Shown in pieces: positions 26,034 to 33,773 of a stretch of 44,316 nt of DNA. The stretch is taken from NCBI GenBank assembly GCA_910585575.1, contig CAJUFS010000019.1, positions 1 through 44,316 of the forward strand. The letters run 5' to 3'. A program made the position numbers and the translations under genes. The DNA is from an uncultured Adlercreutzia sp. Its GTDB lineage: Bacteria > Actinomycetota > Coriobacteriia > Coriobacteriales > Eggerthellaceae. Within the stretch, counting starts at the first letter, position 1, and the number at the start of each line of letters is the position of its first letter. Below the pieces are notes generated by a model. That model made no database searches and was not told the DNA's origin. It saw nothing but the letters and a program-made list of their open reading frames with translations.

Positions 26034-27117
26034 CCTCCTGAAAAGCGACCTGTACCGTCTGGTGCACGGTAAAATGCTCTGGGTCATGACGGCCTGCGTG
26101 CTGGGCATCGCGGCGTTGACGGTCTTCGCCGTTGCCATGGTGTCGAGCCCTGAGTTTCTGTACGCCTCTTCCCAGAGTTTCGAGATGGCTATCGACTATG
26201 TTGAGGACGAGGGCTTGGGCGATTCTTCTGGGGGCGAAGGCTCGGCGGCGTATCCCGTAGAGAACGTTGTCGGTGCTGCCGGGGAGGGGAGCGCGGAAGG
26301 GCCTGCCTCGGTGAATGCTGGTGAGGTGGAGACAGGCTTCAATGACGATGATACCGGCGTCGCGGTTGCCCAGACCTTGGAAGCGACGGGCAAGTCGGCG
26401 GCGGATCTGACCGTGGCGGATTTCGAGGACGCCTCTCGCGATATGCGCACGTTTGCCTCTCCGACGGACATGCTGGGCGATGCCATGCTTTCCGGTGGCT
26501 TCGCATCGCTGCTCACCTGCTTGCTGGTGGCGCTGCTGTTCGCCAGTGATTTTGCGACGGGCTTTGCCCGCAATCTGGTGATGGATCGTCGCGGCCGGCT
26601 GTGCTATTACGGCGAGAAGCTGCTGTTGACAGGCATGGCGGCGCTGTACTTCGTGCTGCTGGCGGCCGCCGCCTGCGCGGCGTTCTTCGCGGTGGCCGGC
26701 TTCACCTATGCGGCGTCCAACAGCGTGGGCGAGGTGGCGGGCTATCTGGGCCTGGGGTGGCTGATCGCCTGGGCCTATGGCTGCCTGACGGCCGTTGTCG
26801 TGTGGATGACGCGCAGCGGCGGCGCGGGCATCGCGTTTGCCATTGTGGTGGGTACGGGCATGCTGGGAGCCATGCTTGGCCAGGTGCTTCTCATTCTGGC
26901 GGGAGGCATTGTCCCTTGGGCCGGCGCGGTGGAGCCGTGGCTCTTGGCCAGCTGCCAGGGCGCGCTGGGTCTGGGCATGCCCGATCTTATGGAGGGCGCG
27001 TTGGTCGGCCCTGGATCGAGCATCCTTCCTGCGGTGCGCGTAGTGGTGGTGTCGGTGTTCTGGATCGCCGCAAGTGCCGTGATCGCTTTCGCATGGCTTC
27101 GCAAGCGGGATGTGTAA
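26026..27117 (+). CDS. ABC-2-type transporter permease
   Basis: The 363-residue membrane protein has one helix near the N-terminus (about residues 18-40) and then a large extracytoplasmic stretch of about 110 residues, rich in acidic and small residues. Five further helices follow in the C-terminal half. This is the ABC-2 permease layout seen in BcrB/LanE-like exporters, with an unusually long first outer loop that might bind the signal or substrate. GAAGGAGG inside the preceding gene drives its translation. Confidence 0.85.
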   Translation: MFNLLKSDLYRLVHGKMLWVMTACVLGIAALTVFAVAMVSSPEFLYASSQSFEMAIDYVEDEGLGDSSGGEGSAAYPVENVVGAAGEGSAEGPASVNAGEVETGFNDDDTGVAVAQTLEATGKSAADLTVADFEDASRDMRTFASPTDMLGDAMLSGGFASLLTCLLVALLFASDFATGFARNLVMDRRGRLCYYGEKLLLTGMAALYFVLLAAAACAAFFAVAGFTYAASNSVGEVAGYLGLGWLIAWAYGCLTAVVVWMTRSGGAGIAFAIVVGTGMLGAMLGQVLLILAGGIVPWAGAVEPWLLASCQGALGLGMPDLMEGALVGPGSSILPAVRVVVVSVFWIAASAVIAFAWLRKRDV

Positions 27118-27196
27118 AAGTCGATCCGCCAGGTACGATTCAATTGCTTGTCAGAGGGCGGGGCCTGGCCCTTGCCACTCGAGAAAGGAAGGCTTC

Positions 27197-28078
27197 ATGG
27201 CGTTGGCAACCTGCCTAGGTGGCCTGGCGGTGTGCGCATTCGTCGTGCTCTGGCTTTATGGACGCGAGCTGTGCCGCATGGCGCGGTGGCTGCGCTATCA
27301 CGATGCGGCCTCTAACGAGCGACTGACGACGGAGATGCCCGGGCCGGGCTTTACGGCCATGGCCCGGGCGGTGAACGACGCTCTCGATGCCGCTGCTGCT
27401 CGGCAGCGGCAAGCAGCTGCCGAGCAGCGCCAGTTCCAAAGCGATTTGGCAAGCCTGTCCCATGACATTCGCACGCCGCTTATGGGGGCGAAGGGCTATG
27501 TGTCCCTGGCCGCCGATGAGCCCGATGCCGCCCGTCGTGCTCACTACCTGCAAGCAGCTGAGGCGCGTCTAGGGGACATGGAAGGTTTGCTGAACTCGCT
27601 GTTTGCCTATGTGCAGGCGGTGGATGCCGAGCGGGAGTTGGATCTGCGGCCGGTAGCTGTGCTGCCAGTATTGGCCGACGTGCTGATGGGCCAGTACCCT
27701 GCGTTCGAAGCCCGTGGCTGGGAGCCCGAGGTGCGCTTCGAGAACGAGGCGTTCACCGTGGAGGCAGACCCTGATGCCCTGGCACGCATCTGCGAGAACC
27801 TCGTCGGCAACGCGTTGCGCCACGGGACGGAGGCGCCCGTCATCACCCAGTGCGGTCGCACGATAATGTTCGCCAATGCTGTGGTCGATGGAGCCGCCAT
27901 CGATCCGGCGCGCCTCTTCGAGCGTTTCTATCGCGCCGACTCCACGCGCACGGGGGCGGGCGCGGGCCTCGGCTTGGCCGTGGTGGCCTCCTTGGCCGAG
28001 GCCCTGGGAGCCACCTGCGCCGCCGAGGTGCAAAACGGCCGCTTTGCCATCGCCCTCACGTTCCCCGATGTTCTCTAA
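27197..28078 (+). CDS. Short sensor histidine kinase
   Basis: The 293-residue kinase has one N-terminal membrane helix (about residues 5-21) and no outer sensor domain. It continues into a HisKA domain with the phospho-accepting histidine 89 (SLSHDIRTPL) and an HATPase domain with the N box ENLVGNALRHG, F box LFERFYRADS and G2 box GAGLGLAV. The G1 box is degenerate (VVDGAA instead of DxGxG). Such intramembrane-type kinases often sense through an associated ABC transporter, which fits the upstream genes. The ATG at 27197 has GAAAGGAAGG before it. The likely partner is the regulator encoded at 24257-24985. Confidence 0.88.
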   Translation: MALATCLGGLAVCAFVVLWLYGRELCRMARWLRYHDAASNERLTTEMPGPGFTAMARAVNDALDAAAARQRQAAAEQRQFQSDLASLSHDIRTPLMGAKGYVSLAADEPDAARRAHYLQAAEARLGDMEGLLNSLFAYVQAVDAERELDLRPVAVLPVLADVLMGQYPAFEARGWEPEVRFENEAFTVEADPDALARICENLVGNALRHGTEAPVITQCGRTIMFANAVVDGAAIDPARLFERFYRADSTRTGAGAGLGLAVVASLAEALGATCAAEVQNGRFAIALTFPDVL

Positions 28079-28084
28079 CGATCG

Positions 28085-28216
28085 ATCCCATCAATCCCAT
28101 TTACAATCCCATTTACAATCCCATCAATCCCATTTACAATCCCATCAATCCCAATTTGGGACAGTAAATGGGATTGATGGGATTGATAGCAGTGTAAGGG
28201 GGCAGCTATGGGATTG
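28085..28216 (+). repeat. ATCCCA repeat array with inverted copies reaching into the next start codon
   Basis: Seven forward units begin ATCCCA at 28085, 28094, 28106, 28118, 28127, 28139 and 28148. They alternate between 9-base (ATCCCATCA) and 12-base (ATCCCATTTACA) forms. Three exact inverted copies (ATGGGATTG) lie at 28168-28176, 28177-28185 and 28208-28216, the last containing the ATG of the next gene. Segments 28117-28137 and 28164-28184 are perfect 21-bp complements, and inside that loop TCCCAA-T-TTGGGA (28149-28161) is a smaller dyad. Confidence 0.9.
28112..28140 (+). promoter_or_regulatory. Promoter built from repeat units
   Basis: TTTACA (28112-28117, 5/6 to the -35 consensus) and TACAAT (28135-28140, 5/6 to the -10 consensus) are exactly 17 bases apart, and each comes from a 12-base repeat unit. 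Transcription would start near 28147, about 60 bases before the AlbA_2 gene. Confidence 0.55.
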
Positions 28217-29752
28217 CCGACGAGCATTGACGCGCTTCTTGATGGCGGCATTGTTGAGAATGCGCGCATCGAGTTCAAGGCTTCTTGGGACCCCCAGACT
28301 TCCCTGAAAACCATCTGCGCTTTCGCCAACGACATCGACAATTGGGGCGGCGGCTATCTAGTGATAGGCGTGACCGACAACGGGGAGGGCGGTCGCGCGG
28401 CTGTGGGCGTTCCGCCCGAGAAGATCGACGGTTACCTGAAGGACATGCTCAATAAGTGCAAGCTCATCCAACCGAGCTATATGCCTCTCGTGGACGTCGT
28501 TGATTATCAGGGCACGAAGCTCATCGTCTTATGGGCGCCGGGCGGAAGCACGCGGCCCTACTCGTCCCCCAAGACCATGGGGAGGCCAAGCGAGCGCATC
28601 TATTGGATCCGCAAAATGGCGAGCACTATCGCGCCAACGGAGGACGACAAGCGCGACTTGTACAGCCTGGCCAATCAGGTACCTTTCGATGATCGCATCA
28701 ATCATGGAGCCGAAGTAAGCGACTTGAACCTAACGCTTATAAAGGAGTACCTTCGCGAGGTAGGAAGCTCGCTCTATGCGGAGGCCGACACCCTCGACTT
28801 CACCGAGCTGTGTCGCGCCATGGGTATAGTGGAAGGGCCTGCGGAGTTCACGAAGCCAAAAAACGTGGGCTTGCTTTTCTTCTCGATGAATCCCGAGAAG
28901 TTCTTTCCCTACGCGCGCATCGACATTGTCGACTTGCCCGACGGCGAGGGCGGCGATCGGCTCGAGGAGCATATTTTCAGGGGGCCCATTCACCAGCAAA
29001 TGCGGGAGGCGATGCTCTATTTACAGAATCGTGTGATCGAGGAGCATGTGATCAAGCGTCCCGATGCGGCCGAGGCCGATCGATATTTCAACTACCCCTA
29101 TGCCGCCTTGGAGGAGGCGCTGGCGAACGCCGTGTACCACAAGGGCTACGATGTGCGTGAACCTATCGAAGTGCGTATACTGCCCGATCGCATTGAGTTC
29201 CTGAGTTTCCCGGGAGCTGATCGCTCCATTAGCATCGAAGGCCTGAAGCAGTTTCGTGCCGTGAGCCGCCGCTATCGCAACCGGCGGGTGGGCGATTTTC
29301 TCAAAGAGCTGCACCTCACCGAGGGGCGCAACACCGGCATGCGGAAGATGCTGAACGCCCTGCGCCGCAACGGTTCTCCCGATCCGGTTTTCGAAACCGA
29401 CGAGGGTCGACTGTACTTCCTTGTGACGATTTACGCTCACCGGAGCGCTGAGGCCGAGGGCGGAGAGGATTCGCTTGGCTCGCCGACTCGGCCAGTCGAA
29501 GAGACGGGGCCCGGTGCCGAGCGTGCCACTGCGAAAAAGCCCCAGAGCCAGATCGTCTTCGGTGGCGTGGCGCAGCGCCAGGATGAGCTGCTGGACTTTT
29601 TCGCGCAGCATCCTGCGGCCACCGTGGCTCAAGCTGCCAAGGCCCTTGGGGTAGGAAAGTCTACTATCAACCGGGATATCGAGTCGCTCAAAGTTGAAGG
29701 CCGCCTGCGCCGGCACGGCTCGGCCAAGGCCGGTACTTGGGTGGTGCTTTAG
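28208..29752 (+). CDS. AlbA_2 (Schlafen-type) / HATPase_c_4 / HTH protein, putative transcriptional regulator
   Basis: The 514-residue protein starts with an AlbA_2 domain (formerly divergent AAA_4; residues about 10-130, with ENARIEFKAS, AFANDIDNWGGGYLVIGV and IYWIRKMAST). A middle region is followed by an HATPase_c_4-like part (about 290-400, with YPYAALEEALANAVYHKGYD and the GRNTGMRKML block). A C-terminal helix-turn-helix lies at about 465-505 (TVAQAAKALGVGKSTINRDIESL). Members of this family are usually annotated as DNA- or RNA-binding regulators, with no settled function. AAGGGGG precedes the ATG, which itself lies in an inverted copy of the upstream repeats, suggesting autoregulation. 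Codon use is looser than in neighbours, consistent with accessory origin. Confidence 0.85.
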   Translation: MGLPTSIDALLDGGIVENARIEFKASWDPQTSLKTICAFANDIDNWGGGYLVIGVTDNGEGGRAAVGVPPEKIDGYLKDMLNKCKLIQPSYMPLVDVVDYQGTKLIVLWAPGGSTRPYSSPKTMGRPSERIYWIRKMASTIAPTEDDKRDLYSLANQVPFDDRINHGAEVSDLNLTLIKEYLREVGSSLYAEADTLDFTELCRAMGIVEGPAEFTKPKNVGLLFFSMNPEKFFPYARIDIVDLPDGEGGDRLEEHIFRGPIHQQMREAMLYLQNRVIEEHVIKRPDAAEADRYFNYPYAALEEALANAVYHKGYDVREPIEVRILPDRIEFLSFPGADRSISIEGLKQFRAVSRRYRNRRVGDFLKELHLTEGRNTGMRKMLNALRRNGSPDPVFETDEGRLYFLVTIYAHRSAEAEGGEDSLGSPTRPVEETGPGAERATAKKPQSQIVFGGVAQRQDELLDFFAQHPAATVAQAAKALGVGKSTINRDIESLKVEGRLRRHGSAKAGTWVVL

Positions 29753-29776
29753 AGCCGTTTCGGGTACAGCAGCGAA

Positions 29777-29807
29777 TCCCGGTCGGGGTAGGCGCAGGGG
29801 ACCGGGA
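29777..29807 (+). terminator. Possible hairpin after the AlbA_2 gene
   Basis: TCCCGGTC (29777-29784) and GACCGGGA (29800-29807) form a perfect 8-bp stem with a 15-nt loop. No T-tract follows. Confidence 0.4.
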
Positions 29808-29848
29808 GCTCCTCGGCTGCTTGTTGGCTTGAGCAGAAGGCGTCCGCG

Positions 29849-29877
29849 TTGCCTTAGGGGTGCGTTTTCGCTATACT
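29849..29877 (+). promoter_or_regulatory. Promoter of the polyferredoxin gene
   Basis: TTGCCT (29849-29854), a 17-base spacer and TATACT (29872-29877) make a good sigma-A-type promoter, with a start near 29884 and a short leader to the ATG at 29917. Confidence 0.65.
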
Positions 29878-29916
29878 CGCAGGTGGGGTTGGGGCTGTGT
29901 CTGGAAGAGAGGCGAC

Positions 29917-31101
29917 ATGGCTCCTTTAGCGAACGCGTTTGAGTTGTTCGAGAAAATTCAGAGCGCCGATATCTCGGTGCATCCGCAGCGCTGTGTGGTG
30001 GTGCGCAACCGTCGGGCCACCTGCTCGAAGTGCGCCGATGCCTGCACGTCCGGTGCCATTTCCGTGCGAGACAACGAGCTTTTCGTAGCGGGGGAGCAGT
30101 GCATCGGTTGCGGCACCTGTGCCACCGTGTGCCCCACTTGCGCCCTTGAAGCCCACCGACCCAACGACGTCCAGCTCGCGACAGCGGTTCTGGCGGCAGC
30201 CCGGGCCAACGGCGGCGAGGCGGTTATCGCGTGCCGTCGGCTGGTCGAGGCAGCCGCCGATGCGTTGGATGCGGAGAAGGTCGTGGCGGTGGAATGCCTG
30301 GGGCGTGTGGAGGAGTCGCTGCTCACGGCTCTGGCAGCTGCCGGGGCGCGCCGCGTGGTGCTCGTAGGCCGCGAGTGCGAGGCCTGCGAGCATGTTGCCG
30401 GCTTCCGCGCGGCTGGCGCCGTCTGCTCAACTATGGCTGAGCTTATGAGCGCGTGGCAGTGCCCGACGACCGTTGAGTTGGCCGAGAAGCTGCCTTCCTC
30501 GGTGCGCGCTGCCGGCCCCAAAGGCTACGACGAGTCGCGGCGCAACTTCTTCTTCCGCGCTCAGGAAGGCGCGCGCCTGGTGGCCGGAGTGGCTGCGGAG
30601 GCGGCCGTGCGCGAGGCAGTGGGCGCCCCCGAGGAGGCGGAGCCGCCGCTCGTGAAAGTCATGGACGACGGAACCCTGCCCCATTTCGTGCCCGATCGGC
30701 GCGAGCGCATCCTGGACAACCTGTCGGCCCTCGGTGAGCCGGAAGACCGTCTCTTGATGACGCGCCTGTGGGGCCATGTGGTCATCGATGCGGAAACCTG
30801 CAACTCCTGCCGCATGTGCGCCACATTCTGCCCGACGGCGGCCATCACGAAGTTCGACGATGACGACGGCACTATCGGCATCGACCATTACCCCGGCGAC
30901 TGCGTGCTGTGTCGGTGCTGCGAGGACATCTGCCCCACCGGCGCGCTCACGCTGTACGACGAGGTGTTCGCTGGCGACCTGCTTTCCGGAACCGTGGAAC
31001 GCAACGAGATGAAGCCGCCCAAATACGACCTGACGAGCCCTAAGAAATCCCTGTTCATGTTCAGAGACATTCTCGACTGTCCCGATATCTACGAGCGCTA
31101 G
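29917..31101 (+). CDS. Polyferredoxin with MvhD-like central domain
   Basis: The 394-residue soluble protein has two N-terminal ferredoxin motifs (CSKCADAC and CIGCGTCATVC, residues about 30-70) and two C-terminal ones (CNSCRMCATFC and CVLCRCCEDIC, about 300-350). Between them (about 90-170) lies a stretch that recalls the hydrogenase/heterodisulfide-reductase delta subunit MvhD: an early cysteine (IACRR), then VECLGRVEESLL and LVGRECEACEH, which parallel CSGRVDP and GCHxGDCH. It has no Tat signal, so it acts in the cytoplasm. It probably moves electrons between a soluble donor and a partner redox enzyme. The ATG at 29917 is chosen over an upstream frame start by its GAGAGG site. The UvrD-like gene follows after 11 bases. 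Confidence 0.75.
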   Translation: MAPLANAFELFEKIQSADISVHPQRCVVVRNRRATCSKCADACTSGAISVRDNELFVAGEQCIGCGTCATVCPTCALEAHRPNDVQLATAVLAAARANGGEAVIACRRLVEAAADALDAEKVVAVECLGRVEESLLTALAAAGARRVVLVGRECEACEHVAGFRAAGAVCSTMAELMSAWQCPTTVELAEKLPSSVRAAGPKGYDESRRNFFFRAQEGARLVAGVAAEAAVREAVGAPEEAEPPLVKVMDDGTLPHFVPDRRERILDNLSALGEPEDRLLMTRLWGHVVIDAETCNSCRMCATFCPTAAITKFDDDDGTIGIDHYPGDCVLCRCCEDICPTGALTLYDEVFAGDLLSGTVERNEMKPPKYDLTSPKKSLFMFRDILDCPDIYER

Positions 31102-31112
31102 GAGAACCGGCC

Positions 31113-32126
31113 ATGACTCACGCTGCTGCTTTCCGAGAAGCTCCCAATCCGCGTATCGCCGCCTTCGCCCAGGCCGTAGCGACGGGAGACGCCGCCGCTT
31201 ACGACGGGGCCGTGGCCCGAGGGGAGATAGATGCCGCCGATTCGTCGGTGACGGTGCTCAAATGGCGCACGAGCGCGGCCGAGCAGGACGCCGTCGCGCC
31301 GTTGGTGCGGGCCCTGCTCGCCGAAGATGCGAGCTTGGCGCCCCATGACGTCTACGTGGCCGCCTGGAGCGGGCCCCAGGCCCAGCGGGTGGTCGACGAC
31401 CTGCGGCGCCATCGCTTGGAAAGCTCCCTGGGTCTTTTCGGAAACCCCTTGGCTGCCGATGCGCGGATGCCCGAGCAAACGCGAACTCGCGAGGCCTATG
31501 CCCGTCTGGCCCTGGCGGCTGAGGGCGATAGGCGGGCCGCGCGATTGCTGCGGTGGGGCCCCGAAGAGGCGGCGGCTTTCCAGGGGCGCACGCGGGCTCT
31601 GCGCGGGCTTTCCCTGCTGGCAGCCTGCAACCCCGAAGGCGACGAGATCTTCTCTCGCCTATGCGGCGCGATCGAAGGCGACGAGGCCCCTGCCGACCTT
31701 CTCGCTCGGGTGCTCGACCGCGCTGGCCGGCAGGCGCCCGACTCGGTGACGGGCGCTGTGAACGTAGGGCCCTTGGCGGCTTTGGCGCAGCGGCCCTGCC
31801 GCGTGGCCCTCGTGCTTTCCGCCGTGGAGGGGCTTCAGCCCGCATCCACCGAAAAGGCGGCGACCGAAGATGCCGAGGCGCCCTTCAGGACCGAGCGCCG
31901 GCGTGTGGCTCGGGCCTTTGCTGCCGTGAGGGACAAGCTTGTGATCTCCACCTTCTCGCTGATGCCTGAAGCGCAGGCGCGCTCATGCGGCGCAACCATC
32001 GTGCGAACGCGACGCGATAGGGGAGAGACGGTGGCCCTTATGCGTCCGAGCCGGTTTCTCGCCGATGCGGGCAACGCCGCGCCAGGCACGGAGTCGGGCG
32101 AGCAGTACCTGACGGCGCGCTTTTAG
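31113..32126 (+). CDS. Stand-alone UvrD-like C-terminal (2A-type) domain protein
   Basis: I do not recognise a named family. The 337-residue protein has no Walker A or B motif. Its first third (VTVLKWRTSAAEQDAVAPLVRALL, then DVYVAAWSGPQAQRVVDDL) looks like motif IV of UvrD helicases. Its end (VALVLSAVEGLQP, an arginine-rich ERRRVARAFAAVRDKLVIS, and later PSRFLADAG) looks like motifs V-VI and the UvrD tail. The TRA arginine-finger sequence of motif VI is not intact. It therefore seems a helicase remnant recruited to another task. It is co-transcribed with the polyferredoxin gene and overlaps the end of the converging LuxR gene. A larger UvrD-like protein lies at 38924-40831. Confidence 0.6.
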   Translation: MTHAAAFREAPNPRIAAFAQAVATGDAAAYDGAVARGEIDAADSSVTVLKWRTSAAEQDAVAPLVRALLAEDASLAPHDVYVAAWSGPQAQRVVDDLRRHRLESSLGLFGNPLAADARMPEQTRTREAYARLALAAEGDRRAARLLRWGPEEAAAFQGRTRALRGLSLLAACNPEGDEIFSRLCGAIEGDEAPADLLARVLDRAGRQAPDSVTGAVNVGPLAALAQRPCRVALVLSAVEGLQPASTEKAATEDAEAPFRTERRRVARAFAAVRDKLVISTFSLMPEAQARSCGATIVRTRRDRGETVALMRPSRFLADAGNAAPGTESGEQYLTARF

Positions 32127-33655
32127 GCGGCCCCGTCTCGCTTCGATTCCACCAAATCGAGCAGCTCCTGCTTGGAGTGGACGCCGGTCTTGCGGTAGAT
32201 GTGCTGCAAGTGCGTGGTGACGGTGCCGCGGGAAATGAATAGCTCCTCCTGAATGTAGGTGCTCGAGCGGCCACGGGCGAACAAGAGCAGAATCTCGGTC
32301 TCGCGCGGCGTGAGCCCTGCCTCGCTGGCGAGGGTCATGCAGCGGTCGCGGAACGACCCCGGCCGAATGCCGTCGGCATCGCCGTCCCCCGTCGACTCGC
32401 CGGCAGGGGTGGCCTCGCTCTCGCTCTCCTCACTGGCCTCTACGGTGAACTGCATCTTCTTCAGGTCGACCAAATCGTCGTCCTTCAGCACGAAGACGAG
32501 CATGGCGAAGATGGCAAGCGTGGTGAGCGCCGTGATGAGGCTCAGGGTCAGCGACGAAAGCTCTACCGCCGAGATCATGGCCGATCCGATGATATGCCCC
32601 ATGGTGTTGCCCACCGTGAGCAGCCCCCAGCCGAAGCCGAACACGAAGGTGGCGGGCAGGCGCAGGGAGTAGGCGATGTTGGCCAGCAGAATCCAGACGA
32701 ACACGTTGAAGGTGTTGTAACCGACAAGCACGAGCAGGCTGTCCCAGGCGGCCGACTCCACGAACACCGGGGTAAGCACGATAGAGGCGGCGATGATGAA
32801 GGTGATGAGCTTGTACAGGTCGCGGAAGGTGCCCTCGCGGCGCAGAAGCAGAAAGCCGATGAGTAAGACGGCCATGACGATGGAGCTGACGAGCATGCCC
32901 GGGTGGTAGAACTGGTGGGGGCTTACCGATGCCACGGTCATGAACGTTTGGCGCATAATGCCGTCGGCCAGGCTGATGACGCAGGTACACAGGCCGATGC
33001 GCAGCAAGAATCCCACGGCGCCTTCAAGCGACGTGCTCGCCTTCACCACGTGCGCTGTGGCCCAGGTGTGCTGCTGGAGGGTCATGATAAGGCCCGAGGC
33101 CAGGGGCAGAAGCGACACGATGGCCACGGCCGCCACAGAGGGAATGTTCGAGATGACAGCGTAGAGAATGCCGGCGAACAGCGCCGCCGTGGGAATTTCG
33201 ATGCCCACTTCGGAAGGGGGGCGGTTTCGGTATATCTCGCCATAGCCTAAATCGAGCAGGCCGCTGCCCGCGCCTGTGCCCACGCCGCCCACCAGGGCCA
33301 AAAGCCATACGGGGGCGTCAATGGCGGTTAAGACAAATGCGCCGAGCGTGCAGGCCGATGTGAGGATGGTGGCGAACCAGCGCACGCGCCGGTCGTAAAG
33401 GGCCTGCTCCATGCGCCGGTAGGCCACCGCGGCGAGAAGCAGGGTGGTGCAGAGGGCCAGAGACGACCATTGGTAGACGGCAGGCGGCAACGGGCTGGGA
33501 GAAAGCCCCACCGAGTTGGCGCCCATGCCGACGAACATCACATAGACCCAGGCGCGCTGGAAGGCGAAGCCCCAAACGCGCATATTGAGGAACATGGACA
33601 GGGAAACTGAGTCTCCTCCTTGATACTCTGAAATACGAGCGAGAATGCCCCTCAT
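32123..33655 (-). CDS. Membrane-embedded LuxR-family regulator
   Basis: The roughly 510-residue protein has about twelve hydrophobic helices in its first 400 residues. A charged linker and a C-terminal LuxR helix-turn-helix follow (about 447-505, with LTPRETEILLLFARGRSSTYIQEELFISRGTVTTHL). This layout is the one described for the Eggerthella family of LuxR regulators that control drug- and diet-metabolising genes, including catechol dehydroxylases. It is divergent from just such a gene here. The ATG at 33655 with GGGGGAG is preferred over an in-frame GTG at 33703. The membrane part probably binds the inducer; the ligand is unknown. Confidence 0.88.
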   Translation of the reverse strand: MRGILARISEYQGGDSVSLSMFLNMRVWGFAFQRAWVYVMFVGMGANSVGLSPSPLPPAVYQWSSLALCTTLLLAAVAYRRMEQALYDRRVRWFATILTSACTLGAFVLTAIDAPVWLLALVGGVGTGAGSGLLDLGYGEIYRNRPPSEVGIEIPTAALFAGILYAVISNIPSVAAVAIVSLLPLASGLIMTLQQHTWATAHVVKASTSLEGAVGFLLRIGLCTCVISLADGIMRQTFMTVASVSPHQFYHPGMLVSSIVMAVLLIGFLLLRREGTFRDLYKLITFIIAASIVLTPVFVESAAWDSLLVLVGYNTFNVFVWILLANIAYSLRLPATFVFGFGWGLLTVGNTMGHIIGSAMISAVELSSLTLSLITALTTLAIFAMLVFVLKDDDLVDLKKMQFTVEASEESESEATPAGESTGDGDADGIRPGSFRDRCMTLASEAGLTPRETEILLLFARGRSSTYIQEELFISRGTVTTHLQHIYRKTGVHSKQELLDLVESKRDGAA

Positions 33656-33773
33656 CAACTCCCCCTGTTGCCTTGGTCTAACCCTTTTGATTCTATCACT
33701 CACCGTGGCTGACTGGTGGAAGTCGTTCTTTCTAAAACAAGGCTATGAACAGGTAATTCTTAAAAGTCATATG

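Follow-up and report, generated by a model that had tools for sequence, protein, structure and literature searches.

A repeat array across the predicted promoter of a Schlafen-like gene in Adlercreutzia as a probable operator for the gene's own winged helix

We analyzed a stretch of 44,316 nucleotides from an uncultured Adlercreutzia sp., which is called the window below. Between a histidine kinase gene (27110-28078) and a gene for a protein of 514 amino acids (28208-29752), the window holds an array of short repeats, and the predicted promoter of the 514-aa gene lies inside this array. Since the architecture recurs in homologues, the repeats track the winged helix of the protein, and the units are nearly confined to the gene, we think that the array is the operator of an autoregulator. 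That is, we hold it probable (roughly three chances in four) that the array is read by the winged helix fused to the C terminus of the gene's own product, which most likely acts as an autorepressor. An earlier interpretation made from the letters of the DNA (the sequence-only reading) had also proposed a self-binding autoregulator, and this still seems the best reading, because repeats lie across the predicted promoter in many homologues and their similarity follows the winged helix. The features of the locus are as follows.

28085..28153, + strand: seven direct ATCCCA-headed units, left part of the putative operator array (from the sequence)
28112..28117, + strand: -35 element TTTACA, predicted, within the array (promoter scoring)
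28135..28140, + strand: -10 element TACAAT, predicted, within the array (promoter scoring)
28157..28185, - strand: inverted copies, right arm of a dyad (partial TGGGA at 28157; full ATGGGATTG at 28168 and 28177)
28196..28202, + strand: AAGGGGG, likely ribosome-binding site, 5 bases ahead of the ATG (from the sequence)
28208..28216, + strand: copy of ATGGGATTG at the start codon, probably coincidental; not found in homologues
28208..29752, + strand: 514-aa gene with SLFN_AlbA_2, HATPase_c_4 and winged helix, in this order (Pfam, AlphaFold2 model)
28256..28615, + strand: SLFN_AlbA_2, aa 17-136 (Pfam, 52.9 bits against a curated cut-off of 25.3)
29162..29413, + strand: HATPase_c_4, aa 319-402 (Pfam, 45.4 bits, cut-off 26)
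29576..29728, + strand: DeoR-like helix-turn-helix, aa 457-507, proposed reader of the array (HTH_DeoR, 28.8 bits, cut-off 21)

The coordinates confirm the description in the sequence-only reading, that is, seven ATCCCA units in steps of 9 and 12 bases followed by inverted copies. The word ATCCCA starts at 28085, 28094, 28106, 28118, 28127, 28139 and 28148 (steps of 9, 12, 12, 9, 12 and 9), and an exact CAATCCCAT occurs five times in the array, at 28092, 28104, 28116, 28125 and 28137. In inverted orientation the word is TGGGAT; it begins at 28169, 28178 and 28209 and is incomplete (TGGGA) at 28157. The array contains a dyad with 29-base arms (28116-28144 and 28157-28185) whose complementarity is 93%. 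The alternation of 9 and 12 bases sets many units 21 bases apart, corresponding to two turns of DNA, and this spacing would suit the binding of several molecules on one face. The units are nearly identical to one another, and the GC content of 28081-28190 is 40%, compared with 63% for the window. The commonest 7-mer has 8 copies within the 170 bases upstream of the start codon. Since 4 or more copies of a 7-mer were found in 2 of 116 random windows taken from Coriobacteriia loci, the array stands above chance.

TTTACA and TACAAT are separated by exactly 17 bases, and the spacer is composed of repeat units. This pair was the top-scoring promoter of the upstream region in the window, with a predicted transcription start at 28147; all promoter calls given here are predictions made with sigma-70-type weights. 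The coverage of this promoter by repeats was 1.00, that is, the -35, the spacer and the -10 are all overlapped, which bears out the claim that the array itself forms the predicted promoter. It is clear that the repeat array and the promoter-like match inside it are real. Autoregulated promoters with embedded operators are ordinary.

The AlphaFold2 model of the 514-aa protein (mean pLDDT 83, pTM 0.58) places the winged helix at aa 454-513, behind a low-confidence linker at aa 417-452. Glu-17 and Glu-22 (E17 and E22) were invariant in all 30 aligned homologue rows, and they may correspond to the nuclease residues in the RNase pocket of mammalian Schlafens; the position that would be taken for the third acid varies. 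The closest solved structure was 3LMM (DIP2311 of Corynebacterium), with a TM-score of 0.36-0.39 over the query and an identity of 14-17%, and 2KYY, the other best fold match, covers the N-terminal domain only; both come from structural genomics. In the Foldseek search, Z-alpha domains also ranked near the winged helix, and we take this as a general winged-helix resemblance. Pfam gave no match to a WYL domain in the protein, and a weak PADLOC match to WYL (E 0.0005) was confined to aa 455-496, which is the helix-turn-helix. The AlbA_2-HATPase part is matched by PADLOC models for pAgo and pAgo-associated proteins. The 14 proteins of the window that were scanned resemble those of respiration, metabolism and regulation, and a replication initiator domain was found in none of them. 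Of the term iteron-like, used in the sequence-only reading, the picture of tandem sites thus stands but not the connection with replication.

Homologues were found in 9 of 138 genomes of the same family, the own genome included (E<=1e-20), in 27 of 396 genomes of the class (E<=1e-60) and in 16 of 140 genomes of a second family (E<=1e-80); these three genome sets overlap. The sequence-only reading had proposed a search for the repeat unit upstream of such genes and regarded homologues without such repeats as evidence against it. The window unit was not found as an array ahead of the homologues. However, most of the homologues examined carry an array of another word at the same place: TTAACCTCAC in L006 and L102, CTCGAC in L008-L010, L106 and L108, GTCGAATATTCGAC in L112, L113 and L116, GTCGCATATGCGAC in L109 and L111, TAGCGCATATGCGCTA in L114, and four copies of AGTTAAGTCATC in L119. 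Therefore the unit does not recur, whereas the architecture does.

The recurrence was measured in 30 Coriobacteriia loci, from which L105 was omitted and in which L110 was taken with its start inside the gene; the rows include close relatives (L115, L117, L118 and L128; L112 and L116). Significant repeats just upstream were found in 25 of the 30 by comparison with dinucleotide shuffles, and the repeats of the remaining five (L104, L107, L113, L123 and L124) were not significant. Random windows of these loci gave a background of 18 in 116 (p<0.05), and of the homologues from elsewhere, which are mostly Bacillota, 9 of 74 had significant repeats. Four or more copies of one 7-mer occurred in 16 of the 30 Coriobacteriia loci, compared with the 2 random windows mentioned above and 2 of the 74 other homologues. 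A significant upstream inverted repeat was found in 24 of 31 Coriobacteriia homologues, including L104 and L113, which have no significant direct repeats, and in 8 of 59 homologues from elsewhere. The outside control consisted of 74 loci with 170 upstream bases (73 genome contigs and 1 viral contig); for inverted repeats it was reduced to 59 by removing 15 by hand, mostly but not all for resembling others. Since both kinds of repeat are near background in homologues elsewhere, the arrays are largely a trait of Coriobacteriia in this sample.

In many homologues the repeats lie across a similar predicted promoter. The mean coverage of the predicted promoter by repeats in 31 loci was 0.73, compared with 0.56 for the whole upstream region, and in some homologues, e.g. 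L103, L115, L119, L124 and L128, the top-scoring promoter lies outside the array. Three relatives were found on viral contigs; one of them (L095) is full length with 38% identity, and its upstream region showed no significant repeats. As a separate observation, the upstream regions of nine Bacillota homologues (L017, L019, L021, L023, L024, L025, L029, L035 and L041) resemble, by eye, the end of one common small gene, and no array was seen by eye ahead of these genes. This small gene is perhaps a separate regulator, like trlR of Photorhabdus.

We then compared the protein identity of homologues with their operator similarity, defined as shared repeated 6-mers, for 24 non-redundant members of 28 homologues (those with at least 90% core identity were removed, and the start of L110 was corrected). 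The identity of the winged helix correlated with operator similarity (rho 0.57, p=0.0001), and it still did so when core identity was given (partial rho 0.33, p=0.0004), whereas the value for the core given the winged helix was 0.135 (p=0.087). When the protein was divided into segments, a test that counts gaps as differences in the core too and thus gives 0.35 instead of 0.33 for the winged helix, the partial effects were 0.43 for the linker and 0.38 for the recognition helix. The effect of the middle part was weaker (0.25, p=0.0035), and no partial effect was seen for the AlbA_2 segment (0.10, p=0.16) or the HATPase segment (-0.08, p=0.77). The suggestion that AlbA_2 might read the repeats thus loses ground, because this domain does not track them once the core is controlled for. 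The linker and the winged helix give equally strong signals, and the recognition helix does not stand out. As a statistical coupling, repeat similarity appears to follow the winged helix beyond what the core explains.

The coupling is carried by class B, the label for homologues with a GYK-type recognition stretch (n=15; rho 0.69, partial 0.43, p=0.003). It was absent in class A, the class of the window gene (n=9; rho 0.08, p=0.27), where the words hardly overlap and the power is small; a clear common word was found in this class solely in L006 and L102, both of which have the recognition stretch ARGTLDRD. Under a strict pattern, the 20 loci of class B comprise 13 with two palindromes of 14 bp, five with one and two with none. 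The spacing of the 13 pairs was 23 bp in nine, 22 in three and 24 in one, and the second palindrome often lies within the 17-bp promoter spacer, e.g. TTGCAT-17-TATCAT in L112 and L116. L108 and L112 share an identical GYKGITKRL, yet their half-sites are GTCGAGT and GTCGAAT, respectively; since the same residues go with different half-sites, the recognition code involves more than this nine-residue stretch. L111, with GYKSVSKRL, has the half-site GTCGCAT, one base from that of L112.

The units are also nearly private to the gene. With a 19-base unit pattern and up to 3 mismatches, this locus was the only match in its own assembly (2.76 Mb, about 90% complete), and when the own genome was searched with another pattern, which left four bases free, the result was four scattered matches with 2 mismatches and no array. 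In other genomes, all 11 places with a palindrome were at the gene in one search (6 genomes), as were 10 of 13 in a second (4 of 8 genomes with a match) and 6 of 7 in a third that allowed one mismatch (2 of 5 genomes with a match). Within these patterns, the regulator seems to have its own gene as nearly its sole target. The three exceptions of the second search (in G161, G366 and G374) were considered as further targets and rejected, for they lie inside the coding sequence of what is presumably gyrA. In L153, L154 and L155 the 14-base word ATCGAGTACTCGAT arises by codon choice in this apparent gene (SFIEYSM), and this occurrence is a warning for operator scans.

We propose the following mechanism for the autoregulatory operator. 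The 514-aa protein would be a bacterial Schlafen in one piece: AlbA_2 is probably the effector, acting on nucleic acid or as an RNase, a GHKL-type module would be the ATPase, and a flexible linker would carry the winged helix. Several winged helices would occupy the units that span the promoter from the -35 through the spacer to the -10, so that the protein shuts off the promoter of its own gene. A potentially harmful effector might thereby be kept low until a signal, such as phage, stress or nucleotide state, releases the repression, with nucleic acid acting at AlbA_2, or else ATP or a ligand acting on the GHKL module. The repeat words would differ by lineage because winged helix and operator change together. 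The binding, the repression, the effector activity and the signal are what we infer, and activation in place of repression is possible.

A different explanation is that the repeats act in RNA: transcripts reading through from the kinase gene would pair the array with the ribosome-binding site and start codon and stop translation, leaving the transcript of the gene itself as the only one in use. The sequence-only reading had suggested such pairing, with five CAATCCCAT copies as the partners, and had counted the last inverted copy, at the start codon, as part of the array. The read-through RNA (28020-28270) is indeed predicted to fold far better than shuffles (z -5.95, 0 of 200 shuffles as good), with the start codon and most of the ribosome-binding site paired to the array, and the start-region pairing in the window was 0.74, compared with 0.34 for shuffled upstream sequence (p=0.03). 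However, any array with inverted copies folds well. The predicted partner of 28208-28216 is 28083-28091, which is the first unit and not an exact CAATCCCAT copy, and the ribosome-binding site pairs with 28096-28102. Furthermore, the RNA from the predicted start at 28147 pairs 28147-28175 with itself instead, in a weak fold (z -1.8). Among 31 loci, the start-region pairing was significant in just three (the window, L104 and L124), which is about chance. The sequence of the start-codon copy occurs 7 times upstream of the window gene, whereas none of the 28 other homologues tested has it there (L105 and L110 being outside this test), and it encodes a conserved Met-Gly/Ala-Leu/Ile-Pro type of start. 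We therefore do not count the copy that ends at 28216 as part of the array, although it is present. The fold predicted for the window RNA allows translational control, and pairing may take place at the window gene, which it might insulate from read-through, but the family as a whole has not conserved it. As a general explanation we consider control through RNA rather unlikely; it and the operator are not mutually exclusive.

The array might also be the operator of some other regulator, e.g. the response regulator of the neighboring kinase. The histidine kinase gene ends just upstream of the array, and a long reading frame that looks like a sensor kinase from its sequence follows the homologue in G213. 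In contrast, the closest relative, G002, has the kinase without the array or the gene, and this joint absence also speaks for an operator of the gene's own. The sequence of G002 agrees with the window at 93% as far as 28065, which is 20 bases short of the first unit, and beyond this point it runs into a convergent LuxR-type gene, which is at 32123-33703 in the window. The G002 stretch contains no unit array, only two single AATCCCA matches in 21 kb, far away. With the unit found nowhere else in its own assembly and the repeat word following the protein's own winged helix, we give little credit to a foreign regulator. Even less can be said for plain tandem expansion without function, which is very improbable: the near-identity of the units in the window would fit a young satellite, but the architecture, built from different words, is seen again from family to family in the class, and the controls stay at background.

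A further alternative is that the arrays mark the ends of a mobile gene cassette, at which it recombines or is inserted; this would be compatible with the operator role. The gene is patchy, as the 27 of 396 genomes of the class show, and eight genomes of the same genus gave no homologue at E<=1e-20. The array and the gene are jointly absent at this place in G002, and the stretch without a counterpart there (28066-32122) also includes the genes at 29860-32126, that is, an iron-sulfur gene (29860-31101) and a gene for a 337-aa protein without a Pfam match. Because the absence lies within this larger unshared stretch, the border of the moved DNA is known on one side only. In addition, in 4 of 27 homologues with enough downstream sequence the upstream array is repeated, nearly unchanged and in direct orientation, behind the stop codon, as follows.

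L006: downstream array copy, 69 bases, 97%
L102: downstream array copy, 165 bases, 98%
L106: downstream array copy, 69 bases, 93%
L109: downstream array copy, 62 bases, 95%

In G366 (L106) and G220 (L109) the next gene is convergent, so the downstream copy drives nothing obvious there. In 73 other fetched loci, any downstream match was seen in five, of which L015 and L050 are the same loci again and the other three have 20 to 41 bases. G213 (L102) has a relative, G300, in which no member of the protein family was found at E<=1e-60. Locus L188 of G300 (G300:C1:1924000-1932000) nevertheless has TTAACCTCAC arrays around a different gene with SLFN_AlbA_2 and a helix-turn-helix, in which HATPase_c_4 scores below the cut-off only. 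This gene is itself flanked on both sides by GCGACA...TGTCGC-type palindromes, nested inside the TTAACCTCAC arrays, and the outer word is the word of the homologue in G213. Duplication and loss, or cassette exchange at the arrays, could lie behind G300 and the flanking copies. On the other side, a downstream copy is absent in 23 of the 27 homologues, the window included (L103 has merely a 17-base inverted match), ordinary tandem duplication and loss would give the same pattern, and the position of the repeats across the promoter is left unexplained. We thus consider boundaries of a cassette improbable as the explanation of the arrays. In L189, L190 and other genomes of the genus of G213, we also observed dispersed repeats with a GTGAATTCAC core, at several places in several genomes; these are perhaps REP-like elements.

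We speculate, quite tentatively, that the arrays serve twice, once as an operator private to a Schlafen system of one gene and once as edges for gain, loss and swap of the gene. Different words might then let related cassettes share a genome or nest in one locus without cross-talk, like the immunity groups of phages, and the array-gene-array loci and G300 would be snapshots of cassette exchange.

The proposed autoregulator can be compared with known systems through passages of the papers cited. An architecture of Schlafen RNase, minimal histidine kinase and wHTH, which has the same domain order as the 514-aa protein, is described beside BREX (PMC12839542), in a paper that also cites a preprint on bacterial Schlafens in anti-phage defence. 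The passages of that paper drawn on here describe no operator array, autoregulation or change of the unit from gene to gene, unlike the present case, and no BREX-like genes were seen among the 14 window proteins scanned. TrlG of Photorhabdus, which restricts growth at raised temperature, likewise has AlbA_2 and HATPase_c_4 and a patchy distribution; as described there, its putative regulator is the separate 79-aa TrlR (PMC7554251), whereas in the 514-aa protein the DNA-binding domain is fused. CapW, which represses a CBASS effector system (PMC9122588), and BrxR of BREX (PMC9122589) are defence-linked DNA-binding proteins with a site upstream, in the promoter region of their own system. In these accounts the regulator is a WYL protein distinct from the effector, and a single palindrome or target site is described, in contrast to the 514-aa protein, in which no WYL domain was found. 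In the open-access literature searched, we found no account of operator arrays ahead of bacterial Schlafen-like genes. Nor did that literature show a private and changing word for Schlafen-type genes, read by the protein's own tail and sometimes flanking the gene.

How bacterial Schlafen-like proteins are silenced is little described in the literature searched. If our explanation is true, effector and repressor would be one polypeptide in this family. The family would also offer a natural set of winged helices, each paired with its own DNA word, which may be usable for working out a recognition code. Finally, the arrays flanking some of the genes suggest a route of exchange that is testable in sequence data.
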